Source: Limisphaerales bacterium (lineage in GTDB: Bacteria; Verrucomicrobiota; Verrucomicrobiia; Limisphaerales; UBA1100). Taken from it: DNA of 32,239 nt. Below, piece by piece: positions 1,060-32,239 of this stretch. Numbering within the stretch: the stretch's first letter is position 1; every line of letters begins with the position of its first letter. The stretch covers positions 1 to 32,239 of the forward strand of contig JACNJL010000061.1 in the NCBI GenBank assembly GCA_014382585.1, in the 5' to 3' direction. Below the pieces are notes generated by a model. That model made no database searches. It worked only from the letters and a program-made list of their open reading frames with translations, and had not been told where the DNA came from. A program made the translations under genes and the position numbers.

Positions 1060-1077
1060 ACCCAAGAACGAATAACC

Positions 1078-2148: not shown

Positions 2149-2168
2149 CCCAAAAAGGGAACCAAGCC

Positions 2169-4142: not shown

Positions 4143-4170
4143 CTGAAAGAGTAAAATTGAAAGGAATAAT

Positions 4171-4440
4171 ATGAGTCCGGATTACACTGTAGAAATATTG
4201 AAAGGGTTGATGAGTCACGTACTGATGATCGCCGGCCCGCTGTTGCTTACCGGTTTGTGCGTGGGGTTGACGGTGAGTTTGTTCCAGGCCGTCACCTCGC
4301 TGCAGGAACAAACGCTCACGTTTGTGCCCAAGGCGTTGGCAGTGGGTGCGCTGTTGTTTCTCATCATGCCGTGGATGGTGCGCACGGTGATGGATTACAC
4401 CCGCGAAATCATTGAAAAAATGCCAGCCATGGCCGGATAA
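4171..4440 (+). CDS. fliQ: flagellar export gate protein FliQ
   Basis: An 89-residue protein with two membrane hairpin segments (about 12-35 and 48-70), the usual size and layout of FliQ. Family hallmarks are GLCVGLTVSLFQAVTSLQEQ and LTFVPK in the loop between them. FliQ wraps around the FliP/FliR core of the export gate. A good ribosome binding site (GAAAGGA) sits before the ATG, 28 bp after fliP. The last base of its TAA is the first base of the fliR ATG. Confidence 0.97.
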   Translation: MSPDYTVEILKGLMSHVLMIAGPLLLTGLCVGLTVSLFQAVTSLQEQTLTFVPKALAVGALLFLIMPWMVRTVMDYTREIIEKMPAMAG

Positions 4441-5210: not shown

Positions 5211-5213
5211 ATC

Positions 5214-6314: not shown

Positions 6315-6480
6315 TTGGGCGAAAAAGCTAAAAAATGACAAATTTCACCCAAAAATCAAAAAAACTGGCATCCCAATTGCTGCGTGGTGAGGGGTGCGCA
6401 TGGATGCGCGCTTTGACGGATTATCCGAAAATGACTGAAAATCAGCCAGCAACCCACGCCCTGGGAGGGCGTCGCGCGGT
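6315..6480 (+). promoter_or_regulatory. flhB-flhA spacer with hairpins, one overlapping the flhA ribosome binding site
   Basis: No gene is seen here. Three inverted repeats are visible. TTGGGCGAAA at 6315-6324 pairs with TTTCACCCAA at 6343-6352 with one mismatch. GCGCAT/ATGCGC at 6395-6408 forms a small palindrome. ACGCCC-TGGGA-GGGCGT at 6456-6472 contains the likely flhA ribosome binding site GGAGG (6464-6468, 12 bases before the ATG). The last could limit flhA translation when folded. This is a reading of the bases only. Confidence 0.35.
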
Positions 6481-8598: not shown

Positions 8599-8631
8599 AT
8601 GGTGGCCGGGCGGCCACGGTTCATCTGCCGA

Positions 8632-14483: not shown

Positions 14484-14504
14484 CGCTTACGATTCCACTG
14501 CTGC

Positions 14505-17500: not shown

Positions 17501-20500
17501 CGAGGCGCGTGTAGGCCGCGGCGTTTCCGGGTTGCAATTCGATGAGTTTACGGAACTTCAGGCGCGCTTCTTCAAAGCGTTCCAGTTGAAACAACTGCGA
17601 GCCAAGCGCATCAATGAGTAAGGGGTTATCCGGCTCTGCGAGCACGGCCTGTTCCAGCTCGGCAATCGCGGCTTCGGGATTGCCCGCGTCCAGAAAAAAA
17701 TCTGCCTGTTCCGCCGCGTTATTCGGTGTGGGTTTTTGTGGGACGACTTCCGGCGCAGCTTCAACGGCGGGCGTGACGATAGTTTCGCCTTGTTCAATCA
17801 CCTGCAAATTTTCGCGTGCGAGTTGGTCTTCCGAATCAAACTCCAGCAACTGGCGGTACGTATCCGCCGCCTGATCGGTGTTGCCCGTTTTGAATTGGCA
17901 AACCGCCAGGGCGTGCAGCAAGCCCGGCGTCACCCCGCCATCGGTAGCGATGCGGCTATAAATTTTCTTGGCCGAAACGTGGTCACCCGTGAGGAATGTA
18001 TAATCACCCAGCAACTGCATCGCCTCGCGGTTCTCCGGTTCTAAATCCAACGCCGTGACAAGGCACGCCTCAAACGCCTCGCGGTCGTCCGCGTGGAATG
18101 CCGCCAGCCCCAGCTGCAAATGCGCCACGACATCGTCGGGACACAACTCCGCCAGCGCGGCAAAATTAGTTCGCGCCTCGGCGAATTGGTCAGCGGCAAA
18201 CTGCTTGGCGCCCAGCGCGCGCAACAGCATCGGATGACGGTCGCTCAGCTCCAGCGCCTGCTTCAGCGCGGTGATAGCGCCGGTCACATCGTTTTGTTCG
18301 TGGCACTGCTCGGCTTTATCCAGCCATTCTTCCAGCGTGCCTTCGGGTAGTTGAGGAGTTTCGTTTGTATCGTTCATTGTTGAATCTGGGGTAATGGATT
18401 CGTCGGTTTGGTTTAAATTCGTTTCGGACGTGAAATCGCCTTCGCCATAATCGGGCTGATCACCACGGGCCAACCAGTCGAGTACCTGTCGCATCCGCAC
18501 TTCGGCGGTGTGATGCCGCAGCACTTTTGCGCGCGCGCGTTCTGCAATGCGCGCGGCGGCTTCGGGGTTTTTCTGCAATTTCAAAATAGCTTGTGCCAGT
18601 CCATAGGCATCTTCGCGTTTAAATAATTCAATTTCCTGCCCCGGCGCAAACAGCGCGCGCGTGCGGGCGCGGGGCGGATCCCACGAAATCACTGGCCGAC
18701 CCGCCGCCATAGTTTCCACCACACGACCGGCGTAGCATTTGAAAATGGACGGCAAATTCACCTGTGCGTAACTTTGCTGCAAGCCCTCCATCCACAGATC
18801 GTTCAAGCGTCGTCGCAGTCGGCGCAGGTTCACCAGATACTCCCCCAGCCAGGCCGGCTCGGCCACGTCGTAGAGGCTCACGCGATTAAGCGAGTTAATT
18901 TGCAGCACATCAAACTGCCGCGGGAAACCGGAGCCAATTTCAGGCAAAGGCGGTTGCGTTAACAACCCCTCGTTAATGGCCGACTCGAGCAGTGCCTTCC
19001 GCTCCAAATTATAAATCGTGCCCTGGAATGCCGCCGGTCCCGGCTCGGGCAAGGCTACCGCATCGCACACCTCGCGCCACGTGACCACCGGCGGGCACCA
19101 CATCGTTGGAATGCCCAGCTCCTCCGCGAGTGTTTCTGCATCGCGATCATCAAAAGTCAGCGCGTGCGTGCAATGCTGAAGCTGGCCCTTCACTTTTTCG
19201 CGCCGCCCGGCGAGATTGCCGTGTTGTTGCTCTTCCTCGGGCGTGTGCTCCAGCGATTCCATAATTACGCCCACGCGCACGTCGGTTTTGCTTTTGATCC
19301 AATCTAAAAAATCCGGGTCGTAATCGTTGTGTGTAATCCAAATCCACGCTTGATCAAATTCCTCGTGCAAAAACATATACTGCGCCTGGCCCAGCCACGA
19401 GGCGGGGTGATCCGAAGGCACACCCGCCAGCGCCGGCAGCGTTTTGAATTCCACTTCATTCGCCGCCAATCCTTCTTCTAGCGCATAAAATCCGTTGTAC
19501 GACCACGCCTTGGCGTTCTGCCAATTGCCGCACTCAAATCCCACCAACAGAATTTTTTGCTTCGGTCGCGCGCCCGTCGGTCTCACCAAATGCGCCGCCC
19601 GCTCGCTATCCACGCTCACCGTTTCAGCGGCCTCCTCAGCAAAGGGGTCGGCCGCCAAAGGCAGTGCTTCCTGGCCAGGGCGTTTCACCAAATCCACTTT
19701 GTCGTACTCGCTCGAGGAATACGAACTGCACACCGACCCTTTTTGAAAACGTTTATAACGGCTTTCCAATTCATCCAAGCCCGGCACCGGTTCGCCCAGC
19801 AGTTCATTGCATTTCACCAGCAACAAAAATGCTGGCTCCAAAATAATGCTGCGTCGCGCCAATTGATCCAGCAACACCACCGCCCGCGCCGCATCGCCCG
19901 GCTCGCGCCGGTGTAGCAGTGCCCGCGCCAGTGCGTAGCGGTAATATGGAAAATCCGGATTCCATTCCACCGCCTGCTCCAGCGGCGCCACCTCGCCGGT
20001 GTATTGTCCAAGGTAATGCGCGAGCGAAGCACGGATCAGGTTGGCCAACGGCTCACTCTTCACCGCGTCGTTGCCGAGCGCCTCGGTGAGCGTGTCGAAA
20101 TAGCTGCGATAATCAAAACACGTGCTGTGATAATCCCACGGCATTACATCCTCTTCGGCAAACACGCGCCAATGGTCGGCCGGTTGGGCGAGTAATTCGC
20201 GCGTAACCGCCAGCGCCTTTTCCACGCCCGCCGGATCGCCCAAATGGAATGCGTGCCGCAGCGCATTAAATCGCAACACGAGCGAATGCGGATGTTGTTC
20301 CCAGCCGTCCTTGTAAATATCCTTCGCTACTTTGTGCAGCAATTCATCTTCACGCTCGAAGGCTTCCACCATATCCAGCCGCTCGGAGCGATCCACCAAA
20401 TCCGGCATATCCGCAGTGAGATAAAGATCCAATTCGCGCGCGGCATTGATGGCCGGCCCGGCGTGTTCGGTTTTGCCGTGCTGCGCTTTGGCGCGCTCGA

Positions 20501-21869
20501 GGTTGTGTTTGAGATGAGCGTAGTTCACTGGAGGCGGATACATCCAACCGCGCGAAGTGATGACGCGTTTTTGGTGCGGCTGTGATTCGGCGCGGCCGTC
20601 CCTTCCGCCGCGCTCCTTGGCGATGGCCGCGCGCACGGTGAGAAAGCGTAGAAATTGCGAAATGCAAAGTGATTGCGAAAATTGCGTGCGCACCATTTTT
20701 CGACCGCGTTGGGCCGCGGCCCGATATGTTTCCCAGTCACCGGTGATTTTTTGCAGATTCTCCATCAAGTCATCCCGCTCGGTGTGATACGCCACCACGC
20801 CCTCGTTTTCGCCGGCGAACAATCGCAACGCACTTTCCTCCTGCGTCAGCACCGCGCACCCCATCGCCAGCGATTCGATGCCGCGCGAGGGCATGCTGCC
20901 CGGATGCCGCACGTAAGTGAACGACGCCTTGGCGCGGGCCATCTCGGCGTAATATTCGGCCGGGGCCAGAAACCCATCGATGCGTCGGATTTGGGCGCTG
21001 TCGTCTTTGATCCATTGTTGCAGCAAGCGCGCCTTGTCCGGATGATATGGGCTGCGCATGGTGCCGGAGATAAATAAATCCACATCACGCACACAATTCT
21101 CTTCCAGAATGGGAAGGCATTTCAAATCGATGCCGAACAATTTCGGAAACGTGCAAACCGCCCCCGGCCGCAACGCCCGCGCCTTGGCCCATTCCTCCGA
21201 GCCGACAGTGATGACCTCGTCAAACGCCGGCAAAATCGGTGCGTTGTTTTGGATATGCAAATCAAGATCCGAAGTGGTGCCAAAAGAAGGGCAGGGCAGG
21301 TCGCCCAGGTCATCGGGCAGAAATTGCCACTCAATCATATGCGCAAAATAAAAGTCCGGTGTGCCTTGGATCGCATCCCGTGCGCTTAGGAATGGCTTCA
21401 CCGGCCGACAATCCATGACAATGTCTCCGTGCTCATCGCGACGCGTGCGTTTCAGTCCAATCCGTTGCAGGGAAAATTTGTCATCCGAGAAATCTTTGTC
21501 CTCCCAAACCGTTTGCGCCACGACCTCAATGCGTTCCTTGCTGATGAGCCGCAACAACTCAGCCGCCTCCGGCAAATCCGATTCGCGTAAAACTTCTTTT
21601 GCCTCGTCCTCGCGCTTGGCCATCCACAACGATGCCGCAAAATAAAAACGCGCTTCGGGATCGGCCTCGTGTTCCAGTGCATCGAGGGCGAGGTCCATTC
21701 GGCCCACCAAACCCAATGCCGCAGCTTGACGCCACCCAGCAATGCCTTGATCGCCAGCAGCACCGCAGAAATTGCCCGCACGGAACCAGTCCGCAGCAGG
21801 CCCGAGGTCAACGGGTGGCAGCGAGTAATGACCCGCCTCCCTGGGGGGGGATTGCTTTGCAACATCCAT
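14505..21869 (-). CDS. giant TPR protein with three glycosyltransferase domains
   Basis: An uninterrupted 2454-residue protein. In order: an N-terminal GT-B domain of the CgeB/Glyco_trans_1_2 type (about 200-420; FTYVRHPGSMPSRGIESLAM near 315); a helical TPR-like region (about 430-750); a second CgeB-like GT-B (about 765-1140; KILLVGFECGNW at 770, VVETMAAGRPVISWD near 1045); an acidic Thr/Asn linker; a TPR array (about 1168-1765); a Gln/Glu linker and more TPRs; a GT2 domain (from about 1912; LSVCMIVKDEEE, VVDTGSTDRT near 1947, LDADEI near 1995); and C-terminal TPRs to the end. The GT2 part resembles SunS-type transferases. It probably builds or attaches a glycan on a protein, in the cytoplasm, since no signal peptide or membrane segment is seen. 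A run of eight C lies at codons 7-9. It is the last gene of the minus-strand glycan locus. Confidence 0.9.
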   Translation of the reverse strand: MDVAKQSPPREAGHYSLPPVDLGPAADWFRAGNFCGAAGDQGIAGWRQAAALGLVGRMDLALDALEHEADPEARFYFAASLWMAKREDEAKEVLRESDLPEAAELLRLISKERIEVVAQTVWEDKDFSDDKFSLQRIGLKRTRRDEHGDIVMDCRPVKPFLSARDAIQGTPDFYFAHMIEWQFLPDDLGDLPCPSFGTTSDLDLHIQNNAPILPAFDEVITVGSEEWAKARALRPGAVCTFPKLFGIDLKCLPILEENCVRDVDLFISGTMRSPYHPDKARLLQQWIKDDSAQIRRIDGFLAPAEYYAEMARAKASFTYVRHPGSMPSRGIESLAMGCAVLTQEESALRLFAGENEGVVAYHTERDDLMENLQKITGDWETYRAAAQRGRKMVRTQFSQSLCISQFLRFLTVRAAIAKERGGRDGRAESQPHQKRVITSRGWMYPPPVNYAHLKHNLERAKAQHGKTEHAGPAINAARELDLYLTADMPDLVDRSERLDMVEAFEREDELLHKVAKDIYKDGWEQHPHSLVLRFNALRHAFHLGDPAGVEKALAVTRELLAQPADHWRVFAEEDVMPWDYHSTCFDYRSYFDTLTEALGNDAVKSEPLANLIRASLAHYLGQYTGEVAPLEQAVEWNPDFPYYRYALARALLHRREPGDAARAVVLLDQLARRSIILEPAFLLLVKCNELLGEPVPGLDELESRYKRFQKGSVCSSYSSSEYDKVDLVKRPGQEALPLAADPFAEEAAETVSVDSERAAHLVRPTGARPKQKILLVGFECGNWQNAKAWSYNGFYALEEGLAANEVEFKTLPALAGVPSDHPASWLGQAQYMFLHEEFDQAWIWITHNDYDPDFLDWIKSKTDVRVGVIMESLEHTPEEEQQHGNLAGRREKVKGQLQHCTHALTFDDRDAETLAEELGIPTMWCPPVVTWREVCDAVALPEPGPAAFQGTIYNLERKALLESAINEGLLTQPPLPEIGSGFPRQFDVLQINSLNRVSLYDVAEPAWLGEYLVNLRRLRRRLNDLWMEGLQQSYAQVNLPSIFKCYAGRVVETMAAGRPVISWDPPRARTRALFAPGQEIELFKREDAYGLAQAILKLQKNPEAAARIAERARAKVLRHHTAEVRMRQVLDWLARGDQPDYGEGDFTSETNLNQTDESITPDSTMNDTNETPQLPEGTLEEWLDKAEQCHEQNDVTGAITALKQALELSDRHPMLLRALGAKQFAADQFAEARTNFAALAELCPDDVVAHLQLGLAAFHADDREAFEACLVTALDLEPENREAMQLLGDYTFLTGDHVSAKKIYSRIATDGGVTPGLLHALAVCQFKTGNTDQAADTYRQLLEFDSEDQLARENLQVIEQGETIVTPAVEAAPEVVPQKPTPNNAAEQADFFLDAGNPEAAIAELEQAVLAEPDNPLLIDALGSQLFQLERFEEARLKFRKLIELQPGNAAAYTRLAMAAEATDRTDEFESALGLAMEIDPDNPEMLRYLGKLNLEQERYYDAGVAFTQLATLEPDNPDNLLAMGVCLFRGGQIEIARETFERVLQLDPDNALALTNLEQLDNEPATETVTETESSVSPYDALASVESDVERILIHAHQTLETGDVEGTRLALEEGLVSHPDDLVLLNAIGNLFFREKRYAEAAEIYHRLTEITPDDAAPHSQAATSALFDGNVHLFNEHVSRLLEIDPENSTGLKLLATAKFRIGEFPEAAKLYARVLEANPEEVESTLALGMCFHKLKDNALAVSCFRRALEIDPYNATAASNLKALAEPTDESAEPETPSQNNGTVKAETVQQLQRETVSNENDGDLPPAALVGSLVASQDLLNQGEHLEAWNAALDCLARRPFHPEAWLHLAEIALDAGDEARALQCLDRLLALSPKWDVPVGVQANLKQKPALTTTDIAWPEPPAASETPRLSVCMIVKDEEEFILQAIKSVKDLAHQVVVVDTGSTDRTVALAESLGAEVHHFEWNENFSDARNYSLEHVTGDWVLILDADEILDPEGNDDLARDLYSENQLGFRIPLANFMRAEDQTLQQTGDGVTYVPRLFRNAPGLHFVGRVHEQIFSSIIVRQGHWGMDSGIGRTRLLHFGYDPSVKLSRDKVKRNLRLLDKAVEEMPDEPALLMNYALDLFNDGRIEEALTQNRHAMEVLSQHEPQHVMPEVRERLVSMFCFHLLQAEKYDELLEVAHSQLSKDCGPTASIHYVAALGLIKQGRHAEAIPELHACIEKSEEQTFTPRFRGVEAHGPYHLLADSLAETGDADGATEAFQKALEISPDAAGVRHGLGTFLVKNDRAEEAVQLLFAAIEKDVMTPTLWSLGCNIVNGHLNDTEIALHWTDCAAQDHPEHPEISKQRGIALLTAGQFENALPLFEGLPKHPANEAARLLCRFVLGQPARLTDADHEKAVSLALVEWTRRLLERGHEAPIQKLTENLKTLTATLPTAGQVLSEAALVS
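21843..21850 (-). repeat. C8 homopolymer at codons 7-9 of the giant glycosyltransferase gene
   Basis: Eight G's on the plus strand (C8 on the coding strand) fall inside the codons for Ser-Pro-Pro near the N-terminus. A second ATG, at 21880 in another frame, also reads into the tract, so a one-base slip would shift which start feeds the long frame. Confidence 0.9.
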
Positions 21870-22001: not shown

Positions 22002-23078
22002 CTATAAATTGAGCGCTGCTTCTAGGGTGCTCGAAAAGTTGCTATTCGGGGTGGGTTTGAGCGTTTTGGGCAGGGCTTGAATTGGTAGGATGGCGTTTTC
22101 ATCAATGGGTTTTCCCAATCGATTGGCTAATTGCTTTTTGGCGATGGGATTATTGGGGAAGCATCGATTGAGTTCGCGGAATTCCCGAATGACGTCCTCT
22201 TCGTTTCCAGTTTCCAATGCGCCTTGGGCGGTTGCTAAAAGAATTTGTTCCAATTCCGATGCGTTGGGTTTTACGCAAGGTTGTGATTGCGGACCGCCGG
22301 CGGCCTCGATATTGAGCGCCATATTGCGGGCCTGATTTTGCACCATTGTGCGGTAAAAATCGCTGGCGATAAAATCAAAGTTGATGCGCCGATCTGTGTC
22401 CCAGCGATCCGATTCGCGCGTGTCCACTTCATCGTGTAGCACGCGGTACACTTGGGGCTGATCCAAAAAGCGCGTGCGATTAAGTCCGTGATCTTCATAG
22501 AGATACCATTGGATGACCAATGACCACGCATCGGTAAAGGACACGTGGCCGAGTCCGCCACAAATTTCCAGCATCTTTCGGCTCCAAAACGGTCCTTCAT
22601 CGATGATCGCCAAGGCATCCATGTGGTCCAGATGGTAGTGCGGGTAAAAGGGTTGCTCTTGAAAGTGCGGCCGATAAAAGCACGGGTGCGGTCGTTGATG
22701 GATCATATAAATGCCATCGTCAAAATGGGTGGTTTCCGCAAGCACGGTGGTGTCCCAGTTGGGTTGGGTGACCACGAAATCATCCGCGAATGCGCCCATC
22801 ACAACGGAGCGATCATCGGCCAACATCATGGCGCGGGTGTAGCCGATGTGGATATCGATGTATCCGCGCCCTCGCGGCTCGACAATGTGTTTCACTGCGA
22901 AAGGATAATTTTTCAATTGCGGGAGATAGTCCGGCACCTTGGGATCACACGTGTCGAACTTCACGAGCACTTCAAAATTATTGTGATCGGCGCTGTAGTC
23001 GACCAAGCTTTGCAGCAGGTTGGGCAAGCCCCAGTTGGGGTTGCCCTCAATGCGGGAAGTGATGAGAAGGCTGATCAT
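22002..23078 (-). CDS. GT-A (GT2-like) glycosyltransferase
   Basis: A 358-residue protein starting ISLLITSRIEGNP, a typical first beta strand of GT-A glycosyltransferases, followed by LPNLLQSLVDYSADHNNFEVLVKFD cut into the usual strand-helix-strand order. The putative metal/nucleotide site is AFADDFVV at residues 96-103. A long frame reaches back to 23180, but the ATG at 23078 is chosen: it gives the family N-terminus and overlaps the stop of the preceding gene as ATGA. The C-terminal 60 residues look helical and TPR-like. The acceptor and donor are unknown. It lies in the putative phosphoramidate-glycan operon, right after a sulfotransferase-like gene. Confidence 0.8.
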   Translation of the reverse strand: MISLLITSRIEGNPNWGLPNLLQSLVDYSADHNNFEVLVKFDTCDPKVPDYLPQLKNYPFAVKHIVEPRGRGYIDIHIGYTRAMMLADDRSVVMGAFADDFVVTQPNWDTTVLAETTHFDDGIYMIHQRPHPCFYRPHFQEQPFYPHYHLDHMDALAIIDEGPFWSRKMLEICGGLGHVSFTDAWSLVIQWYLYEDHGLNRTRFLDQPQVYRVLHDEVDTRESDRWDTDRRINFDFIASDFYRTMVQNQARNMALNIEAAGGPQSQPCVKPNASELEQILLATAQGALETGNEEDVIREFRELNRCFPNNPIAKKQLANRLGKPIDENAILPIQALPKTLKPTPNSNFSSTLEAALNL

Positions 23079-23878
23079 GCTTGTATGGTGTTTAGGGTTC
23101 GTTTGTTGAGCAAGTCGCCCAGTTTTTCGCGGGCGGTATTTCGGCTGGCGGATTTGTAACGGGCGTGGGTGCGCGCCCACTCGCCGTCGCGTTCATAATT
23201 CCATTGGCGCATCACGCCGCCCAATTCCTCGTGGAATTTCAGCGCCACATCGCCACTAAATTGATTAGCCCAGTCGCCGGAAATGCCTTTGCGGAACAGG
23301 TATTGGGAGCGCACGGTTTCACCCGATTGGCCACGCCGACGTTGAGTGACATTTTCAAAACTATGTCGCGCACACGATTCCTGTAGCGCGGCATCGGTGG
23401 CCGGCACTTCGGCAAAATCCAAAATATGGCGAAGCCCGATTGGAATGTTGCGTTTTAATTGTTCAAAAGTGATGTTCAAAATGTTTGTTTGTTCGAGTGC
23501 CCGCCAGGAATTCGCATCGTCAAACATATCGCCGAAATTGGATTCAACATATTCAATATACAATTCATTTTCCGTTTTGCCTTCGTGCAAATCTCGGTGA
23601 ATGATATCTTTCACGTGCGACACCAGCACATCGCGCGGGTCGCGAGTGAGGCAGATAAATCGAAAATCATCCCGCGCCACAAAATCGCCAAACAGTTCCG
23701 GGCCGCTGTGAGTCCAGTGGAATGCGCGTTTGCCATCGGCCACATCCGCCTTAAATTGTTCCAGCTCCGAAGGGCCGGAGAAAAATTTGCAGCCCGCCAT
23801 CTGCGCGAACTCTTCCAGCACCGGCATTACAATGGATGCCCCGGCGTTGGGTAGATTGTAAAAGACAACGTGTTTCAT
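23075..23878 (-). CDS. sulfotransferase-fold protein, putative phosphoramidate transferase
   Basis: A 267-residue member of the PAPS-dependent sulfotransferase fold. The region that binds the 3'-phosphate of the donor is well kept: LTRDPRD at 77-83 with Ser87, and RKGISGDW at 196-203. The N-terminal loop that normally reads PKSGTTW and holds the 5'-phosphosulfate is instead YNLPNAGAS (residues 7-15), without the usual Lys, Ser and Thr. A shared FHWTH block is at 53-57. It is clearly paralogous to the second half of the fusion protein at 27242-28675. From that context I suggest it moves phosphoramidate from 3'-phospho-CDP-phosphoramidate to a sugar; ordinary sulfation is the alternative. It starts four bases after the methyltransferase gene and overlaps the next gene by four. 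Confidence 0.75.
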   Translation of the reverse strand: MKHVVFYNLPNAGASIVMPVLEEFAQMAGCKFFSGPSELEQFKADVADGKRAFHWTHSGPELFGDFVARDDFRFICLTRDPRDVLVSHVKDIIHRDLHEGKTENELYIEYVESNFGDMFDDANSWRALEQTNILNITFEQLKRNIPIGLRHILDFAEVPATDAALQESCARHSFENVTQRRRGQSGETVRSQYLFRKGISGDWANQFSGDVALKFHEELGGVMRQWNYERDGEWARTHARYKSASRNTAREKLGDLLNKRTLNTIQA

Positions 23879-23882
23879 AAAT

Positions 23883-24629
23883 TTAATCTTTCAATTGCGC
23901 GGCCCACAAGCGAGTGGTGTAGCCGACGGCCAACACTTTGCCGTGTGCCCCCGTGATGGCTTCGATGCCGCCGATGATGCCGTCGAACGCTTCGCCCGCT
24001 TGGCGTTGTAGCGTGCCGTGCGAGCGCCACGCTTCCACGTACGCCTCTGCCGGAACCCGCGCCACATACGAGGCTTCGATGAACATCGGCTCTTTAAAAA
24101 TACCGCTTTCGCGAATGACTTCCGTTTGATCTTCACGCCGCGAGCCGTAGCCGTAGCCGTCGATGCGACTCTTGATGTAATCCTCCACCTCGGCTTGAAG
24201 TGAGTGGTTCAAATCACGGTGGTTCCACAGACACGCAAACCATCCGCCGGGGTGCAGAATGCGTTGCGTTTCGCGCAGGGCGGCTGGGCGGTCGGTGGTA
24301 TTAAATGAAGAACCAAAGGTGACTGCGTCAAAGGCATTATTCGGCTGGCCGGTGGCTTCGCCGGTGCCCACGTGCCATTGCACGGGTTTATTGGCGGTGA
24401 CGCTCATTCCCACCGCGCGCATCGCGTCGTTGGGTTCCACAGCGGCGACATTGCAACCGCGAGCCACGAGCAATTTGGTGAGGTGCGCAGAGCCCGCGCC
24501 CACATCGCACACGGCGGCATTCGCGCGCAGCTCGGCGAGGTCACAAAAACGCACTACCGCTTCCACGGCATAATCCGGCCGATTCAAATAATGCGGCGCC
24601 AGTTTGGTATAGTCCCATTTTGTTTTCAT
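23883..24629 (-). CDS. SAM-dependent methyltransferase (class I, type 11-like)
   Basis: A 248-residue Rossmann methyltransferase. The SAM-binding motif I is VCDVGAGSAHL at about 40-50, with the acidic strand end AAVEPNDAMR, a motif near FDAVTFGSSF and the post-motif ILHPGGWFACLWN. The N-terminus has YTKLAPHYLNRPDY, matched by FTKLASDYSSCRPDY in the paralogue at 26463-27227. Candidate substrates in this locus are the phosphoramidate group, as with the methyltransferases Cj1419/Cj1420 beside the Campylobacter phosphoramidate genes, or a glycan hydroxyl. The sequence alone does not decide. It sits in the operon 28 bp after the TagF-like gene and four bases before the sulfotransferase-like gene. 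Confidence 0.85.
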   Translation of the reverse strand: MKTKWDYTKLAPHYLNRPDYAVEAVVRFCDLAELRANAAVCDVGAGSAHLTKLLVARGCNVAAVEPNDAMRAVGMSVTANKPVQWHVGTGEATGQPNNAFDAVTFGSSFNTTDRPAALRETQRILHPGGWFACLWNHRDLNHSLQAEVEDYIKSRIDGYGYGSRREDQTEVIRESGIFKEPMFIEASYVARVPAEAYVEAWRSHGTLQRQAGEAFDGIIGGIEAITGAHGKVLAVGYTTRLWAAQLKD

Positions 24630-24657: not shown

Positions 24658-26460
24658 TTACGTGATTTGTAATTGTGGGGTTTGGGCCGGGGTTTCGTAT
24701 TTCAAATTATGTCCGTTTCCCTGCAGATGCCGGGCTAATTGCCGGTGAGCTTCTGCTTCGCCGTCCATATGAAGATTGGTGAAGGCGTCAGCGAGCCGGT
24801 TGTGGTTGCCGATATCCCACGGGTTAAGTTCGACCGCGAGAAAGAGTGGGGAAAGTGATTCCGCGTGGCGTCCGAGCAGCATTTCCAACTGGCCCAACGC
24901 ACTGACCACCCCTTCGTGGTCGGGTGATTCACTGAAGCCCTGTTGCAGTTGGTCCCGTGCGGTGGTGGCGGTGGAAGGTGCGAGAAATGCCTGGCTGCGT
25001 TCGAGGGCCGCATCGCCCAGATGCATATGGTGTTGCGTCCGCTGGTGCCAATGGGTGGCATCGCCTTCAAGGTTGCCGTGTGCGCCGCGCGGGGTGGGGA
25101 GGATTCCGTAATATCGCCAGTCCGGATGGGGTTCGTCGTTCAGAATGTAGTGGATGCTATCCGCAAAATAATGCGCCGATCGGCCGGGATTGAACACGGC
25201 TTGTTCACGGGTATGTTGAATTTTTTCGCGATACAATTCCGGGTGGTCCAGAGCGTGGCGTATGGCTTGGACGAGTGCTTCGCAATCCGTTGCCACTTGG
25301 CCGACCTCATTCCGGAAGCGCGCAAAGGCGCACTGCTTCACGGAATCCGGGAGGTTGGCTTCGTTGTGTGAAAAGAAAATCGTGGGCTGTTGGTTGGCGA
25401 GGGAGAAGGTGTACGCCGCGCTCGAGAAATCAGAAACCATCACAGCTGTTTTTGCGTAGCAGTCGTGGTAGTTGCCGCCGGATTGGTCGTGCACGAAGTT
25501 GGGATAGCGGGAACCGATCTCGAGAATGGGCAGGATGGTTTCGGGCTGTTCGTCCGCATATGGCTTGAAAACAACCGGCCGCTCGGGGAAAGCGTGCAAT
25601 AGGGCCTCCATAATTTGAGGTCCATGGGAGTGAATGGAAACGAAGGGTTTCCAGTGGTCTTTTCCCACCACCGGGGTGGGGGCATAGGTGATGTTCTCTC
25701 GCGGTTGGGTGTGCGCTTCGGCCCGGTGCATTCCTTCATCCAACGAGGGATAGCCCAGTGGGATGACGCATTGGCTTTGGGCGAGCCGCTTGGGTTTCAG
25801 TCGGTCCGCCAATCTTTTGTGCTCGAGAAGGTTTTTTTCGTTCGTGGGGCGGTTGGCAGTGAAGGGATGAGAAATCGCCGGTTGCTGGTACATCTGGAAA
25901 GCGTGTTCACAGGATTCAACAAACTCTGGGGTGGCCACGGAAATGTAATCATACAGACGCCAATACGCGGTCATATGAGTATGCTTGGTGACGAGTTCTT
26001 CATCGGAAAGCGGGCGATCCGTTTCCGCTGCGGAGGCTTCGGGCTTGCCGGTGTGGAATGGAATTCCACCGAATGAGCCGTGCACCATTAACATTTTACG
26101 GGATTCATCCGGGAGTGAATCCATAATGGTCGGCACCATAAACAGATCTATAAACCCGAGGTGATCCAGGATTTTGCCCCAAACTCGGTAAGCGTGCGGA
26201 TGGTTTTCATAGTCGTCCAGATGCCGCTCGCAGTAGAGGCGGATGACGTGGATGCCGCGTGCTTCGAGTTCCTCCGGGATGGTTCCGAACAGTTTTCGGA
26301 AAGATTTGGTCGGGCAAAAGATGGCCACCGAGCGCTTGTTGGGCGGGGTGTCGCGCAGAATCCGGCCCGCCTGCCAGCGGCTTGCCGGATCCAGAAAACG
26401 GCTCGCACCAATGCGCTGGAGCCAGCCGTCGTGATTCATCGGTTTATCAATTCCCGTCAT
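24658..26460 (-). CDS. TagB/TagF-like (CDP-glycerol glycerophosphotransferase-type) GT-B protein
   Basis: A 600-residue protein. Its centre matches the CDP-glycerol:glycerophosphate transferase superfamily, best seen in VMVSDFSSAAYTFSL and the following PTIFF at about 338-358, the site that binds the nucleotide donor, and in an earlier PVVFKPYADEQPE block. In teichoic acid enzymes this fold transfers glycerol- or ribitol-phosphate; in Gram-negative capsule loci relatives add phospho-polyols or sugars. The last 120 residues look like TPR helices (LGQLEMLLGRHAESLSPLFL). The reaction here is open: it could make the polymer that the locus decorates. The start is two bases after the stop of the upstream methyltransferase gene. 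A later ATG at codon 8 is possible. Confidence 0.75.
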   Translation of the reverse strand: MTGIDKPMNHDGWLQRIGASRFLDPASRWQAGRILRDTPPNKRSVAIFCPTKSFRKLFGTIPEELEARGIHVIRLYCERHLDDYENHPHAYRVWGKILDHLGFIDLFMVPTIMDSLPDESRKMLMVHGSFGGIPFHTGKPEASAAETDRPLSDEELVTKHTHMTAYWRLYDYISVATPEFVESCEHAFQMYQQPAISHPFTANRPTNEKNLLEHKRLADRLKPKRLAQSQCVIPLGYPSLDEGMHRAEAHTQPRENITYAPTPVVGKDHWKPFVSIHSHGPQIMEALLHAFPERPVVFKPYADEQPETILPILEIGSRYPNFVHDQSGGNYHDCYAKTAVMVSDFSSAAYTFSLANQQPTIFFSHNEANLPDSVKQCAFARFRNEVGQVATDCEALVQAIRHALDHPELYREKIQHTREQAVFNPGRSAHYFADSIHYILNDEPHPDWRYYGILPTPRGAHGNLEGDATHWHQRTQHHMHLGDAALERSQAFLAPSTATTARDQLQQGFSESPDHEGVVSALGQLEMLLGRHAESLSPLFLAVELNPWDIGNHNRLADAFTNLHMDGEAEAHRQLARHLQGNGHNLKYETPAQTPQLQIT

Positions 26461-26462
26461 AA

Positions 26463-27227
26463 CTATTTCCTGTTAACCGTCCAAGCGCGGGTTTTGTAGG
26501 GCACCACGACTTTTTCCAAGTGGCTAATTTTTTCTCGGATGGCATCCAGTAACTGAGGGAACAATTCCGGCCCGGCTTGGGCCTGAATGTCGTTCACCGA
26601 GCGCCAAGCACCGAGGTAACGTTTGTGGCTCATTGCAATTTCGTGGCGGGCTTCCATAAAAATGCAATCGGTGAACTGGCCGGTCGACTGGAGGTCATCG
26701 GTCCAATCGCGGGAATTTTTTGCGCGACCGGATGACACTCGTTTGAGATTTGGCAGCCGGTCGTGGATGCCTTGTTCAATATTTTCGTGCAGTTCATTGC
26801 CATCAATATTGCGCGGATTCCACAAAATGGTGAGGTGTCCGCCGGGTTTCAGAATGCGATGAAATTCCGCCAGCGCAACCGGCGTATCCGCCCAATGAAA
26901 TGAGGAAGCCATCGTCACCCAGTCTACGCTGGCATCGGGCAGATTAGTGGCTTCGGCCAGTCCATCGTGCCAATCGATATCGTAATCCGCAGTGAAGCGG
27001 ATGCCTTCCGCGCGCATATTATCACACGGCTCAACCGCTGTGGTTTTCAATCCTGTCTGCGAGAGCATCCGGCTCCAGATGCCGGTGCCCGCGCCCACAT
27101 CCGCCACGGTCGTTGCGCGCGTATGGGTGAGCAAAGTCTGCAACACGCTTTGCGAGTAATCCGGCCGACACGAGGAATAGTCGCTCGCTAGTTTAGTGAA
27201 ATCGCCTTGCTTGATTGTAGAATTCAT
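26463..27227 (-). CDS. SAM-dependent methyltransferase (paralogue of 23883-24629)
   Basis: A 254-residue class I methyltransferase with VADVGAGTGIW at 41-51, TAVEPCDNMRAEG after the second strand, SVDWVTMASSFHWAD and a HRILKPGGHLTILWN block. The open frame extends to 27446, but the extra 73 residues lie over the upstream gene and lack family character. The ATG at 27227, 14 bp after that gene's stop, gives the N-terminus shared with the paralogue. As in Campylobacter phosphoramidate loci, two methyltransferases occur with the phosphoramidate genes, so methylation of the transferred phosphoramidate is a fair guess for one or both. The catalytic target cannot be read from sequence. Confidence 0.85.
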   Translation of the reverse strand: MNSTIKQGDFTKLASDYSSCRPDYSQSVLQTLLTHTRATTVADVGAGTGIWSRMLSQTGLKTTAVEPCDNMRAEGIRFTADYDIDWHDGLAEATNLPDASVDWVTMASSFHWADTPVALAEFHRILKPGGHLTILWNPRNIDGNELHENIEQGIHDRLPNLKRVSSGRAKNSRDWTDDLQSTGQFTDCIFMEARHEIAMSHKRYLGAWRSVNDIQAQAGPELFPQLLDAIREKISHLEKVVVPYKTRAWTVNRK

Positions 27228-27241
27228 TTTCTTTTGTTTGT

Positions 27242-28675
27242 TTAATTTAAGTTGGTCCTCGGGTTGGATTGAAAGAGGGATTGAATTTGTTGCTCGGGGC
27301 TGAATCGCGAGTAGCCGGTTAACGAGTTCAGTCGGTCGGTCATTTGTTCCAACTGCAATAAGCTGGCAAACAGCGTTCCGTTTGAGCTGTGCTTGTGTTT
27401 TTGCGCGTGAGCCTCGGCCCAGTTGCCGTTGGGTTCGTAGCCCCACGCCCGAAGATACCGGCCAAACCGGCGTTGAAACATCCGCGCGGTGGAGCCATCG
27501 AAATGATTTGCCCAGTCGCCGCTAATGCCTTTGCGCGGTAGATACTTGTTGCGAATGGGTTGGCCGGATTCACCTCGCTGTTGACCGGTCACGGATTCAA
27601 AGCTGTGTTTTTCGCACAACTGCCGCATGGGAGCGCGATTCATGGGCTGCAGCCCGATAAATTCCAGCAACTGCGCCATGAACGTGGGGATGTCGCGCTT
27701 CATTTCTTCAAAGCTGATTTGGAACACATTTGGCTGCTCTAACGCGTGCCAGGCGTGGGCCTGTTCAAAACGCTGTTCGAAGCCGGATTGAATGGCTTCG
27801 CGGCAAAGGGTCCGCATCGATTTGCCCTCGGCGTGAACCGTCTGCAAAACATTTTGAAGAAACGACACCAGCGTATCGCGCGGATCGCGGGTGAGGCTGA
27901 TGAACCGGACGTCGTCGCGATTCAGTTCGGCCGCAAAAGTTTCCAGCGGGTGATGGGTCCAATGGAAAATCGGGGCGTTTAATTTTAGCAAGTCATGAAA
28001 GCGATGCGTCTCATTCGGACTGGCGAGATTGGCGTACCCCTCCGCTTCAAGTAATTCCTCGAGGATGGGCACCAGTGCGCCTCCACCTGCATGGGTGGGG
28101 TTATAAAATACCACGTGCGGCCGTTGCGAAAGCGGATGCAGGCCGAGGGCGGATTGCAGGAGTTCATTTGCCAGTTCGGTTGCCGGTCGCAGTGGTGAAT
28201 TGTTGGTTAACACTAAATCGGGATTGGCGGGGCGATCGTATTCAAGGTCGAAGCCGGCCACGTTTTGCACTTCCCCGCGGGCTGCGCGGCTGTAAAGGCC
28301 GCGGGCATCGCGTTCGCATAATTCGGCCCAGTCGACTTCCAGCCAGATTTCAAAATAGTTGGGCAAGTGCGCGCGGTTCCATTCGTGGATTTCGCGAAAG
28401 AGCGACATCGTGGGCACGATGACGGTTTGCCCCTGCTCGGCCAAAAGCTGCGCGAGGCGGCTGATGCGGTAGGCGTTGGCAAGGCGGCTGGTGATGTCGT
28501 GGCCGGTTTTGGAATCAGCGATGGCGGTGCGCACGGCGTCGCCATCGAGCACCACGGGGCGCTCACCGCGGGCGCGCAATTGCTCGGCGGCGGCGTGGGC
28601 GATGGTGCTTTTGCCGGAGCCGGAAAGTCCGGTAATCCAAAGCACGCGGCCTTCGTTGGTTAAATGTTCGGTCAT
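27242..28675 (-). CDS. APS-kinase-like domain fused to sulfotransferase-like domain; putative CDP-phosphoramidate kinase/transferase
   Basis: A 477-residue two-domain protein. Residues 10-175 are an adenylylsulfate-kinase-type P-loop kinase: ITGLSGSGKST (14-24), LDGDAVR (43-49), ERDARGLYSRAARGEVQN (121-138) and an ANPDLVL end. Residues 186-430 are a sulfotransferase fold with LTRDPRD (261-267), Ser271 and RKGISGDW (381-388), but YNPTHAGGG (191-199) where PKSGTTW is expected. Campylobacter Cj1415, an APS-kinase homologue, phosphorylates the 3'-OH of CDP-phosphoramidate. With matching neighbours I infer that the N-terminal half makes 3'-phospho-CDP-phosphoramidate and the C-terminal half uses it. 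A bifunctional PAPS-making sulfotransferase is the alternative. The ATG at 28675 overlaps the preceding stop (ATGA); the frame reaches 28723. Confidence 0.85.
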   Translation of the reverse strand: MTEHLTNEGRVLWITGLSGSGKSTIAHAAAEQLRARGERPVVLDGDAVRTAIADSKTGHDITSRLANAYRISRLAQLLAEQGQTVIVPTMSLFREIHEWNRAHLPNYFEIWLEVDWAELCERDARGLYSRAARGEVQNVAGFDLEYDRPANPDLVLTNNSPLRPATELANELLQSALGLHPLSQRPHVVFYNPTHAGGGALVPILEELLEAEGYANLASPNETHRFHDLLKLNAPIFHWTHHPLETFAAELNRDDVRFISLTRDPRDTLVSFLQNVLQTVHAEGKSMRTLCREAIQSGFEQRFEQAHAWHALEQPNVFQISFEEMKRDIPTFMAQLLEFIGLQPMNRAPMRQLCEKHSFESVTGQQRGESGQPIRNKYLPRKGISGDWANHFDGSTARMFQRRFGRYLRAWGYEPNGNWAEAHAQKHKHSSNGTLFASLLQLEQMTDRLNSLTGYSRFSPEQQIQSLFQSNPRTNLN

Positions 28676-29451
28676 GCGGTCACAGCAGTCACACTGTCTT
28701 CCCAGCGCCAATCGTGATCCCAATTGGGGCGGTCGAGGCGTTCTTCGTACAGGCGCAGATCGGTTTCGCTATCCACTTCGCACCAGCGGCCCCGGGTGGG
28801 GGTGGCGTTGATTTCCGCGCCGTCTTCCAATAACAATTGGAGCAGCGAAGTCATGTCCAGCCGGTCGCGCCGCGCCTTGGGCAGGTCGTCGAGGATTACC
28901 TCGATGCGGCGCCAACCGGCTGGAGAAATTTTTAGGAGACCCATATATTGGCCTTCAATGTCGGCAACCTCGACCGCGCGATCGCCGATGGATTGCAGCG
29001 CGCCGTTGTCGCGCAGCCGGAACGTTTCGGCGTCTTCCAGCGGATCAGCAAAGCGTTCGCTCCAAAGCGGCAGCCATTCTTGATCGTAGCTAATGGCTAG
29101 TTCGCCGGGGTTGAGAATAAGCTGCTCGAGAATGGCGGGGTGATAAACGATGTCGGAATAGGACACAATGCAGTCATCGCGCTGGAGCCATTGGCTGGCG
29201 CAGGCGAGGGTGCTGACCATATTGGTGCGGGCCCAATCGGGATTTTCAAACCAAATGCAATCGGTGGGATTGAGGGATTCGGCAAGGTACCCGCGCACAA
29301 TGGCGATGTCGCGAATGCCGGCGGCACGGAGTGCGCCGAGCTGCCATTCGAGCAGCGTGCGCCCGGCGAAGGGCGTGAGGCATTTCGGGTGATCTTCGGT
29401 GAGGCCTCCCATTCGGGAGCCGCGTCCGGCTGCTAAGATGATCGCGCGCAT
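28672..29451 (-). CDS. nucleotidyltransferase, putative CTP:phosphoglutamine cytidylyltransferase
   Basis: A 259-residue NTP-transferase (GT-A-like Rossmann) protein. It has the nucleotide loop LAAGRGSRM at 6-14, HPKCL at 21-25, WARTNMVSTL at 73-82 as in LicC-type cytidylyltransferases, and a likely metal Asp in SYSDIVY (Asp100). CTP is the expected nucleotide from relatives such as Cj1416, which joins CMP to L-glutamine phosphate to give CDP-L-glutamine; a sugar-1-phosphate or choline-phosphate substrate remains possible. The frame is open to 29814, but the ATG at 29451, four bases after the amidotransferase stop, gives the canonical MRAIILAAG start. It overlaps the kinase-transferase gene by four bases. 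Confidence 0.85.
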   Translation of the reverse strand: MRAIILAAGRGSRMGGLTEDHPKCLTPFAGRTLLEWQLGALRAAGIRDIAIVRGYLAESLNPTDCIWFENPDWARTNMVSTLACASQWLQRDDCIVSYSDIVYHPAILEQLILNPGELAISYDQEWLPLWSERFADPLEDAETFRLRDNGALQSIGDRAVEVADIEGQYMGLLKISPAGWRRIEVILDDLPKARRDRLDMTSLLQLLLEDGAEINATPTRGRWCEVDSETDLRLYEERLDRPNWDHDWRWEDSVTAVTA

Positions 29452-29455
29452 AATT

Positions 29456-30100
29456 TTATTTCTCCCAACCAAGAGTGGTGCACAGCAGGTTTCGATCCAG
29501 TTGCACCTGTAAGTTATCCCCATCGCGTTCGGGATGCCATTGCACGGCGGCGATGGGCGCGGCGCGGTGGCGCACGGCTTCCACGCAGCCATCATCGCTA
29601 GCGGCCAGCAGTTCGAGCGATGGTGCCAGCGTGTTCGCGGGCACGGCCCAGTTGTGAAATGAATTAACCGTGGCGCGTCCGGGCGCATCGAATTCCAGCA
29701 AATCTGTTCGCAAATGCACGGTGTGTTTTTGGGCCAAATGTGTTTTGGGCTCGCACCGGCGTAGTGCGCCGCCGCCGCGTTGTTGCAGCAATTGCATCCC
29801 GCGGCACACGCCAAAAACAGGCAGTGCGTTGCGCACGGCGTGATCGATCACAGTGTTTTCGGTTTTGTCGCGAATGGGACAAGTGCCAAGGTCATTGCCG
29901 CCGGATAATATAAATCCATCGAGTTGCCAGTGTTGGATAAACTCCGCCACCGCCGCGCCGAGGTTTGGGACGGGCACCCACGCCACGTCCGGTGCGAACG
30001 CGGCCATATAGCGCGCCCAGTCTTGAGCGAGACAATCGCGCGGTTCACCGGAACCGGCGGCTTGTCCCACTCTCATTGTAATGCCAATACGTTCAGCCAT
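29456..30100 (-). CDS. class I glutamine amidotransferase-fold hydrolase, putative CDP-glutamine hydrolase
   Basis: A 214-residue protein of the gamma-glutamyl hydrolase (peptidase C26/class I GATase) type. The catalytic triad is visible: Cys99 in VFGVCRGMQLL, and His189 and Glu191 in AVQWHPERD. FILSGGNDLG at 63-72 is the oxyanion-region motif. In the Campylobacter pathway the homologue Cj1417 cuts glutamate from CDP-L-glutamine and leaves CDP-phosphoramidate; the same role is inferred here from the neighbouring kinase and cytidylyltransferase. The ATG at 30100 was chosen. Another at 30115, eight bases inside the upstream gene, is possible; both follow a repeated TTTATGGCT. Neither has a good ribosome binding site. 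Confidence 0.85.
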   Translation of the reverse strand: MAERIGITMRVGQAAGSGEPRDCLAQDWARYMAAFAPDVAWVPVPNLGAAVAEFIQHWQLDGFILSGGNDLGTCPIRDKTENTVIDHAVRNALPVFGVCRGMQLLQQRGGGALRRCEPKTHLAQKHTVHLRTDLLEFDAPGRATVNSFHNWAVPANTLAPSLELLAASDDGCVEAVRHRAAPIAAVQWHPERDGDNLQVQLDRNLLCTTLGWEK

Positions 30101-30107
30101 AAATTGT

Positions 30108-32239
30108 TTAGCCATAAATTGGCCGGAGTAATTTTGCCGCGCCATCGAGTTCCACCCGGTTGGCCGCGGCAATGCGTTCAAAGGTTTGTTCGCCCACGCC
30201 AATGGCCGCGGGCAGGCCGAGCTCGGCGCAGCGGATGGTCATGTGGCTGTTGGCCCCGCCGAACTTGCTGACAAGACCGGCGATGTTGCGCGTGAAAATC
30301 CAGTCAAACCCCGGATCAGCATTCTCAATGCAAATGATGCGGCCGCTGAGTTGGCCGTGGCCACGCGATTGGTTGCCCAGTCGCAGCGGCTCGCCTTCCA
30401 CGTGGCGGTTGCCCACAAAGTTCGGCGCGCTGCGGTGCATCGGCACCACATAAAAATCACCCGGATCGCGGATGAGGAAACCCAGGCGAATGCCGTCAAC
30501 GTTTTCCTGTTCGCGGCGGCGTTGTTCCACGAGATCTTCAAAGTGCAGCTCGGGATCGTTGAGCACCGGGCTGACAAGATGATTGAGCAAATCCTGCACG
30601 GAAAGATGCGAGAGCGCATCGCGATCCAGCCGCGTGTCGCTGCCCCAATGGGCAATCAATTCCAGTGCATCGGAAAGGTGACGGGTGAAAATAAACTTGG
30701 CGCGCTCGCGTTCGGTGATGGCTTGGCGTGCGTACTCGATGAATTGTCCCGGCTCCACCTCGGACATTCCCGCTGCGGCAAAGAGTTTTTGGAACGACTG
30801 CGCCTCCGCGCGGGTGAGCGGAAAAATGGCATCACTGGTGGCCGGCTCGGGCTGGGCGGTGGCGGCAAATAAATCATCGCGTTGATCGTACCGCGGCGAG
30901 GTGATGTCATACGTGCCCGGGCGCAAGTGGCCGTACTTGGCGAGAAACTCCGGACGCCGTCGCGGTTGCGCGAGGGCGTCGGCAAAGTCGCCGGTGAAAT
31001 CCGCCGTCACCGTGCGCAGCGTGCGCTTAAACGCCGCCAGTCGTTTGGCCGAAAGCGCGCCGCGTGTCACGGCTGAACGCAGAATGGCTTCTGCCATAAA
31101 CGCGTGCCGCGCGATGACCGAAAAGGGACGTGTGCCCAGCGCGCGGCATTCTTCGAGCAACAGCGGGAGCCGCGCCAAATCGTTGAGTGAACGCCGTTGG
31201 GTTTGTAGCGCCTCGAGTTGCTGGATTTTTTCCAGCGCCACCGGCAACGAAGCGCCGGGCGCCAGGCTGAGATTGGTGGCGGTCACTTGGGCGAGCAGAT
31301 TGCGGTAATCGAGATACTCATCCGGCTCGAGCACATCGCCGTAGCGGTTTTGGAAATCTTCGTCGAAATTAAAATCCAATACCGTCTGCGCCACATCAAA
31401 CTCGACTTTGTCGTGCAGCTTCGGGTTGGCCTCGAGGCGGTCGAGCCACGCATCGACCAATCGCTCGCGCGTTTCGATGGGCAACCCGGCGGGCAGAAAA
31501 GAATTAAAACTTGCGCGCACATCGATGTACGGCTGGCCGCCCAGCGTGAGCATCAGCGGTGTATTCGGCACCGGTTGATAGCCCATCTCCGCGCGGGCCT
31601 CTTGCCAAATGGAATCGGTGATGAGATGCCGGTACAGCGAAATCGCCAGCGGCCGCGGGCGCGTGCCGATGATCTCTGCGGGATTCCAGTCGGGCATCTG
31701 CCCGAGAATCGTGCGCGCGCCAGCTAGTCCCACGCGTGGTTGAGCGTGGCGCGTGAAAAATTCGCCGGATTGAAACAACACCTCGCTTACGTGACGGCTG
31801 ATGCGGCGGTTCCAGTTTTCCTGCACCGTGATGCGTCGCACTTGCAGCAAATGCAATTGACCATCGCGAGATTTTGCAAATTCAATATCTAACGGCGTGC
31901 CGCGATCACACAAGCCTTCCAGCTCGCGCGCCAGCTCCAGCAACTCCGCCACGCGCGGCGAATCGACGTGATCGGTCACATAATCGCGATGCACCAAAAC
32001 CGTTTTATTGACCACGCTGCCGCCGGTGATGGTATCGGTCTTGCCGGTTTCGTCATCGTAATTCAGCACATAATACGGTGCGCCGCTGTCCAGCTCGTGC
32101 GTCATAATTACGCCACTCAAAGTCACATCCGTCACCATCGTCATCACTAGGACTTGGTTTTCCGGGCACTCATCCATCGACTCGATGACCTCTTCCACCG
32201 CGCTCCACACCGCCCGCGGTTGGCTGCTGTCCACGTCCA
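30108..32239 (-). CDS. PEP-synthase-like phosphotransferase, putative glutamine kinase (5' end outside window)
   Basis: At least 709 residues are present and the frame runs off the window at 32239, so the N-terminal ATP-grasp part is cut. The visible start has the end of an ATP-grasp domain (LDIEFA, then LLQVRRI). A long helical middle carries GQMPDWNPAEIIG and LAISLYRHLITDSIW. The C-terminus is the PEP-utiliser swivel domain with FGGANSHMTIRCAELGLPAA; its His, 45 residues from the end, is the likely phospho-carrier. True PEP synthases have a TIM-barrel PEP domain after the His, which is absent. This layout matches the Campylobacter glutamine kinase Cj1418 (ATP + glutamine to glutamine phosphate), the first step of phosphoramidate synthesis. 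The other pathway enzymes follow directly. Confidence 0.82.
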   Translation of the reverse strand, partial: DVDSSQPRAVWSAVEEVIESMDECPENQVLVMTMVTDVTLSGVIMTHELDSGAPYYVLNYDDETGKTDTITGGSVVNKTVLVHRDYVTDHVDSPRVAELLELARELEGLCDRGTPLDIEFAKSRDGQLHLLQVRRITVQENWNRRISRHVSEVLFQSGEFFTRHAQPRVGLAGARTILGQMPDWNPAEIIGTRPRPLAISLYRHLITDSIWQEARAEMGYQPVPNTPLMLTLGGQPYIDVRASFNSFLPAGLPIETRERLVDAWLDRLEANPKLHDKVEFDVAQTVLDFNFDEDFQNRYGDVLEPDEYLDYRNLLAQVTATNLSLAPGASLPVALEKIQQLEALQTQRRSLNDLARLPLLLEECRALGTRPFSVIARHAFMAEAILRSAVTRGALSAKRLAAFKRTLRTVTADFTGDFADALAQPRRRPEFLAKYGHLRPGTYDITSPRYDQRDDLFAATAQPEPATSDAIFPLTRAEAQSFQKLFAAAGMSEVEPGQFIEYARQAITERERAKFIFTRHLSDALELIAHWGSDTRLDRDALSHLSVQDLLNHLVSPVLNDPELHFEDLVEQRRREQENVDGIRLGFLIRDPGDFYVVPMHRSAPNFVGNRHVEGEPLRLGNQSRGHGQLSGRIICIENADPGFDWIFTRNIAGLVSKFGGANSHMTIRCAELGLPAAIGVGEQTFERIAAANRVELDGAAKLLRPIYG

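Follow-up and report, generated by a model that had tools for sequence, protein, structure and literature searches.

We analysed a 32,239-nucleotide stretch of DNA from a marine Limisphaerales bacterium (contig JACNJL010000061.1; hereafter the window) and found that its right end carries four minus-strand genes of an operon, which encode a glutamine-kinase-like protein, a class-I glutamine amidotransferase, a nucleotidyltransferase and a kinase fused to a sulfotransferase-fold domain (Table 1). The window occupies the left-hand side of its 60.9-kb contig, in a 3.7-Mb assembly that is 95% complete, and it ends where a 327-bp run of N begins (contig 32240-32566), which hides the N-terminus of the glutamine-kinase-like protein. 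The initial annotation had described these genes as consecutive and tightly packed, and their coordinates (27242-32239) and junctions (+7, +4 and -4 bp) bear this out. It had also read them as the pathway to an activated phosphoramidate donor, whose four steps are known from the O-methyl phosphoramidate (MeOPN) of the Campylobacter capsule (PMC6429109, PMC3907429).

The glutamine-kinase-like protein scored 809 bits for NF004508 (PRK05849 type; cut-off 501), which we take to be the model standing for Cj1418, and the full-length orthologue L065 scored 891 bits. Both proteins have PPDK_N and PEP-utilizers domains, and a scan with family models gave no match to the phosphoenolpyruvate (PEP)/pyruvate-binding barrel in either the window fragment or L065; hence, the earlier description of a PEP-utiliser His domain without a PEP barrel is confirmed in both. 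The phosphohistidine-type His665 (fragment numbering) lies in GGANSHMTIR and is invariant in 80 relatives. By its domains and score, the window protein is well supported as a glutamine kinase of the NF004508/PRK05849 type, with phosphorylation of the glutamine amide N as its putative reaction.

For the amidotransferase, the best NCBIfam model was NF045546 (gamma-glutamyl-CDP-amidate hydrolase; E 7.7e-28), and the Cys-His-Glu triad claimed previously (Cys118/His208/Glu210) is present and invariant in 74 relatives. The nucleotidyltransferase has the NTP_transf_3 fold with conserved nucleotide-binding residues (G10, G12, R14, K24, D101, E226 and D228 are invariant in 73 relatives), and specificity for CTP and phosphoglutamine is predicted for this candidate.

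We searched genome contigs with a profile built from four glutamine kinases and found that at least 544 contigs encode a relative; we fetched the best 80. These include Verrucomicrobiota, Pseudomonadota, Desulfovibrio, Bacteroidota, Acidobacteriota, Omnitrophota, cyanobacteria and others. In the phylum of the window the glutamine kinase is sparse (4/388 genomes), yet it is common in the genus of the window. All four genes are present at 42 of the 47 loci whose flanks reach 6 kb or more on both sides, and the glutamine kinase, amidotransferase and cytidylyltransferase are contiguous in the same order at 34 of these 47. Moreover, natural fusions join the amidotransferase to the glutamine kinase (L059), the cytidylyltransferase to the glutamine kinase (L010, L011) and, in the genus of the window, the kinase to the sulfotransferase-fold domain. 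Hence, co-occurrence, gene order, fusions and invariant catalytic residues indicate that the four genes form a functional unit and do not adjoin by chance. The pathway does lie outside Campylobacter, as first noted, but with at least 544 contigs carrying a glutamine-kinase relative this location is not unusual; at the level of sequence families, the relatives in many phyla also contradict a 2022 review that terms the glutamine kinase 'C. jejuni-specific' (PMC9561416).

Viral contigs were searched as well and gave one glutamine-kinase relative, a fragment at a contig edge that adjoins a serine recombinase and capsid-like genes (L124:4237-6012); this is perhaps host DNA beside a prophage.

The loci come in two types. 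Among 83 glutamine-kinase loci, which are the best matches to the query and not a random sample, 23 carry the family of the two S-adenosylmethionine (SAM) methyltransferases of the window operon (MT1 and MT2), 35 carry a pair made of an uncharacterised protein of about 190 aa and a formyltransferase-fold protein (PF00551) beside the kinase and glutamine kinase (for example L033:8406-9746, L042:8441-9753 and L043:912-2357), and none carries both. The pair is fused in five loci, and the AlphaFold2 model of its second half is near methionyl-tRNA formyltransferase (Z 20). The pair may be an alternative way of using or capping phosphoramidate.

The kinase domain of the fusion protein scored 176 bits for NF004041/PRK05541, above the cut-off of 127, and 130.8 bits for apsK (TIGR00455), below the cut-off of 138.7, whereas two typical CysC proteins (L097, L098) gave the reverse pattern, passing apsK and failing PRK05541. 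In the kinase tree, 66 kinases of such clusters stand apart from true adenosine 5'-phosphosulfate (APS) kinases (support 98/92), and the window kinase lies within a 22-row branch of cluster kinases (support 99/97). The two exceptions, L041 and L070, are long-branch cluster kinases on the APS-kinase side of the tree, and their placement is likely an artefact. Cluster kinases and CysC share the fold, the P-loop, DGDxxR and Arg64; in contrast, 15/15 APS kinases (counting L118 by ALISPF, L119 by FICP and L101 by VIAP) and 0/66 cluster kinases have [FL]ISP or a motif close to it, and 55 of 65 cluster kinases have Tyr or His in place of the Phe of LGFS. An AlphaFold2 model of the fusion protein (mean pLDDT 80; predicted local distance difference test) superimposes on APS kinase 7yq1 with Z 25.2 and a root-mean-square deviation (rmsd) of 1.6 over 170 residues. 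Hence, the earlier term 'APS-kinase-like' is right for the fold but incomplete, since the domain does not stand alone, and the failed apsK cut-off, missing [FL]ISP and separate branch set it apart from true APS kinases. With family models, co-occurrence, fusions and the kinase tree in agreement, assignment of the four genes to the Cj1415-Cj1418 types is well supported; the enzyme types proposed at the outset stand, with the reservation that the amidotransferase is below its curated cut-off.

The initial annotation had no sulfotransferase-fold domain, and we found one (PF00685) at about residues 186-414 of the fusion protein and a second in a stand-alone operon protein, ST2, which is 40% identical to the first. 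The fusion model matches cytosolic sulfotransferase (SULT) structures with bound 3'-phosphoadenosine 5'-phosphate (PAP) (5x2b; Z 17.5, rmsd 3.4 over 218 residues). Across five lineages (the window, L009, L023, L029 and L079), W-x-H, which aligns with the catalytic His of SULT2A1, and the residues R, D, R and D of the 3'-phosphate-binding RDPRD are invariant. The window and L029 retain the other 3'-phosphate motif, RKGxxGDW; L009 and L079 retain it in part, and L023 lacks it. Unlike SULT, all eight members of the five lineages have N, H, P or S in place of the Lys of PKSGTT in the 5'-phosphosulfate-binding (5'-PSB) loop, in a register aligned by eye; in the window the loop reads T-H-A-G and P-N-A-G. 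Hence, the fused domain (ST1) and ST2 have the fold, catalytic His and 3'-phosphate motifs of a sulfotransferase that uses 3'-phosphoadenosine 5'-phosphosulfate (PAPS) and lack its 5'-PSB Lys. We infer that, with the grip on the 3'-phosphate kept and this Lys missing, a different 5'-group is held, which would fit the PAPS-like 3'-phospho-CDP-phosphoramidate.

Also unlike SULT, these domains are tied to phosphoramidate-donor genes. In 30 relatives of the window genome, strong matches to the sulfotransferase family (A3; >350 bits) occur in 5 of 8 genomes with the glutamine kinase and in 0 of 22 without it (p 0.0004, a value that overstates independence because five of these genomes are one genus). 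All ten strong matches lie in or beside the phosphoramidate cluster, and the one further match has 80 bits and stop codons. By locus, the family is present at 7/23 methyltransferase-type and 0/35 formyltransferase-type loci (p 0.0008; 0.005 after the genus is collapsed). A Sulfotransfer_3-like family near L014, L018, L031, L041, L068, L071 and L074 was set aside as evidence, since it also occurs at formyltransferase-type loci. At L037:13579-14896 the kinase-sulfotransferase gene is broken by a frame break that could be an assembly error.

Together, these genes suggest the following route. The PPDK-like glutamine kinase would phosphorylate the amide N of glutamine via a phosphohistidine, the cytidylyltransferase would make CDP-glutamine, the amidotransferase would cleave CDP-glutamine to CDP-phosphoramidate and glutamate, and the kinase domain would phosphorylate the 3'-OH of CDP-phosphoramidate. 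The fused and stand-alone sulfotransferase-fold domains would then move phosphoramidate from 3'-phospho-CDP-phosphoramidate to a sugar hydroxyl, as sulfotransferases use PAPS, and MT1 and MT2 would O-methylate the phosphoramidate. From sequence and gene context, we consider it fairly likely that the operon directs the synthesis of an activated phosphoramidate and its attachment to a glycan, with the flagellin glycan as the likeliest acceptor. The sulfotransferase-fold family is probably the phosphoramidate transferase, with the donor as a PAPS analogue. The fuller proposal, that an unrecognised sulfotransferase-fold class transfers phosphoramidate from a PAPS-mimicking donor, with maker and user fused in Verrucomicrobiota and a flagellin glycan as the target, is finely balanced, and we put it forward tentatively. 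Transfer by this fold would explain why the pathway phosphorylates the 3'-hydroxyl. Transferases in the operon had been noted before; these likely ones, one of them fused to the kinase, had been missed.

Several findings weigh against this interpretation. The homology to Cj1415-Cj1418 comes from family models, and the amidotransferase has 98 bits for NF045546, below the cut-off of 250 (two other cluster amidotransferases score 79-87 bits); hence, we file it as a class-I amidotransferase that would work like the Cj1417-type hydrolase and not as a certified member. Only about one-third of methyltransferase-type loci carry this sulfotransferase family, and flagellin as the likeliest target in the window organism is read from the gene neighbourhood. 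In addition, the window genome (G000) has cysDN and hence makes APS, its CysH scores higher as a PAPS than as an APS reductase, and apart from the fusion kinase it has no APS-kinase-like gene, so that the fusion kinase may additionally serve as an APS kinase.

These points bear on two explanations that involve sulfate. If the donor pathway is real and the sulfotransferase-fold domains are true PAPS sulfotransferases, another gene, such as that of the 600-aa Glyphos_transf protein, would make the transfer; pathway loci without this sulfotransferase family must indeed use another transferase, all eight family members match PF00685, and APS is made in this genome. However, the 5'-PSB Lys that grips PAPS is missing in all five lineages, the genome has no separate APS kinase, the domain is fused to a kinase of the cluster branch, and the presence of the family tracks the glutamine kinase, so we judge this explanation unlikely. 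We give much less credence still to the kinase-sulfotransferase being a self-contained sulfation enzyme that also feeds PAPS to sulfate assimilation and merely adjoins the phosphoramidate genes. The opposite model scores of the fusion kinase and CysC, the loss of [FL]ISP in all cluster kinases and the existence of relatives with CysH orthologues and no APS kinase speak against it, although the APS-kinase fold (Z 25) and the status of this gene as the sole APS-kinase-like gene beside a PAPS-reductase-like CysH are what it would predict. Five such relatives (G408, G416, G420, G421 and G425) have the same CysH (orthologues 77-83% identical, one 60%) and lack any APS kinase. Hence, sulfate assimilation in this lineage is independent of the fusion kinase, and we rejected it as the job of this kinase.

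A sulfate assimilation operon at L095:1416-4342 has a CysH that scores as a PAPS reductase, and no ordinary APS kinase was found in that genome; close relatives that share this CysH have no APS kinase at all. Reduction of APS by a CysH that lacks an Fe-S motif is thus a possibility here.

The setting of the operon bears on the target of the phosphoramidate. Three flagellin genes flank the operon on one side and flagellar export genes on the other, so that the locus is a flagellin island; the initial annotation was right that it is not a capsule locus and had missed the flagellins and the genes read as fliL-flhF on its flanks. From this position, a flagellin glycan would be the likeliest target. 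Among beta- and gammaproteobacteria, a flagellin also lies within 10 kb in L028 (a Burkholderiales metagenome-assembled genome, MAG), L033 and L034 (Methylotenera and a related MAG), L042 (Alteromonas) and L043 (Paraglaciecola); L043 carries a Maf flagellin glycosyltransferase, and L033 carries FliD. The alternative, in which phosphoramidate goes to a surface polysaccharide or small molecule and the flagellar position is incidental, is possible though rather doubtful: the Campylobacter target is the capsule (PMC3907429), a Vibrio plasmid copy is beside XrtA/PEP-CTERM exopolysaccharide genes, and many loci are without a flagellar gene within 10 kb, whereas the window operon spans from flagellins to flagellar export genes and flagellin neighbours recur in unrelated lineages. 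Most loci have no flagellar gene in the stretch covered, and together with the Vibrio plasmid copy this suggests that the target probably differs between organisms.

Table 1. Features of the window and of the flagellin region upstream of the operon (positions are those of the window unless L003 is given)
Feature	Position	Strand or place	Basis
Flagellar export and motor genes, read as FliL to FlhF	346..9768	+	Open reading frames identified by reading
2454-aa tetratricopeptide repeat (TPR) protein, possible flagellin glycosyltransferase	14505..21869	-	Glyco_trans_1_2 89 bits, Glycos_transf_2 76 bits, many TPRs
Uncharacterised operon protein of about 358 aa	22002..23078	-	No Pfam match; kept within genus
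Stand-alone sulfotransferase-fold protein ST2, second candidate phosphoramidate transferase	23075..23878	-	PF00685 E 1.8e-21
SAM methyltransferase MT2	23883..24629	-	Methyltransf_11; same family as MT1
600-aa Glyphos_transf-type transferase, probably glycan glycosyl- or polyol-phosphate transferase	24658..26460	-	PF04464 28 bits
SAM methyltransferase MT1, candidate for O-methylation of phosphoramidate	26463..27227	-	Methyltransf_11
APS-kinase-like gene, 477-residue kinase-sulfotransferase fusion	27242..28675	-	Kinase model matches and PF00685
Fusion sulfotransferase-fold domain (aa 186-414), candidate phosphoramidate transferase	27434..28120	-	PF00685 E 6.6e-22, AlphaFold2 model
Fusion kinase domain (aa 1-178), candidate CDP-phosphoramidate 3'-kinase	28142..28675	-	NF004041/PRK05541, tree, APS motif missing
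Nucleotidyltransferase, candidate phosphoglutamine cytidylyltransferase	28672..29451	-	NTP_transf_3 (PF12804) 76 bits
Class-I glutamine amidotransferase, candidate gamma-glutamyl-CDP-amidate hydrolase	29456..30100	-	Best NCBIfam model NF045546
Glutamine-kinase-like gene, C-terminal 709 aa	30108..32239	-	NF004508 809 bits, PEP-utilizers 43 bits
Flagellin	L003:8985-9797	Upstream of operon	Pfam
Two more flagellins	L003:12605-13987, 14266-15084	Upstream	By reading

Compared with the MeOPN capsule pathway of Campylobacter jejuni (Cj1415-Cj1418; transferases Cj1421/Cj1422), the window operon has the same four enzyme types with methyltransferases alongside, and it also includes heptose-kinase-like GHMP and sugar-1-phosphate guanylyltransferase-like genes (HddA/HddC type); Campylobacter attaches MeOPN to heptose, among other acceptors (PMC3907429, PMC9561416). 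It differs in the fusion of the kinase to a sulfotransferase-fold domain and in its place in a flagellin island instead of a capsule locus. The lipooligosaccharide core of Xanthomonas campestris bears a phosphoramide and is thus another bacterial glycan, beyond Campylobacter, with a P-N group, but this is a core oligosaccharide and not a flagellin island (PMC8042644). In a literature search without most subscription journals, no paper came up that describes a phosphoramidate transferase of the sulfotransferase fold or a flagellin bearing phosphoramidate, and none that joins phosphoramidate, sulfotransferase and capsular polysaccharide; in two papers naming both phosphoramidate and flagellin, phosphoramidate came only in passing or in references. 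The pathway itself is already known, and the kinase-sulfotransferase fusion and the flagellar setting appear to be new.

P-N bonds are rare in biology, and phosphoramidate on the Campylobacter capsule affects phage binding and host interaction. The whole donor pathway occurs across many phyla, in a methyltransferase type and a formyltransferase type that exclude each other, and so phosphoramidate chemistry looks much more widespread than thought. The kinase-sulfotransferase fusion provides a concrete, testable candidate for the use of the donor and would account for its 3'-phosphate, and the gene neighbourhood suggests that flagella may carry phosphoramidate groups.

The last gene of the operon encodes the 2454-aa TPR protein, whose glycosyltransferase domains are group-1-like and family-2. 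Beyond the window, on the upstream side, sugar genes extend the operon as far as flagellin: they encode a B12 radical-SAM protein, a DegT aminotransferase, two thiamine-enzyme halves, the heptose-kinase-like GHMP kinase, the guanylyltransferase-like protein, an epimerase and a flavin adenine dinucleotide (FAD) oxidoreductase. We searched the operon for long repeats and found none. A B12-binding radical-SAM protein (L002:8658-10217) is immediately upstream of the glutamine kinase and has weak similarity to P-methyltransferases (79 bits); its relatives in L085 and L090 also adjoin the glutamine kinase. At L011:7406-10870, the glutamine kinase-cytidylyltransferase fusion has neighbours whose reading suggests PEP mutase, phosphonopyruvate decarboxylase and a dehydrogenase, so that one locus may combine P-N with P-C chemistry.

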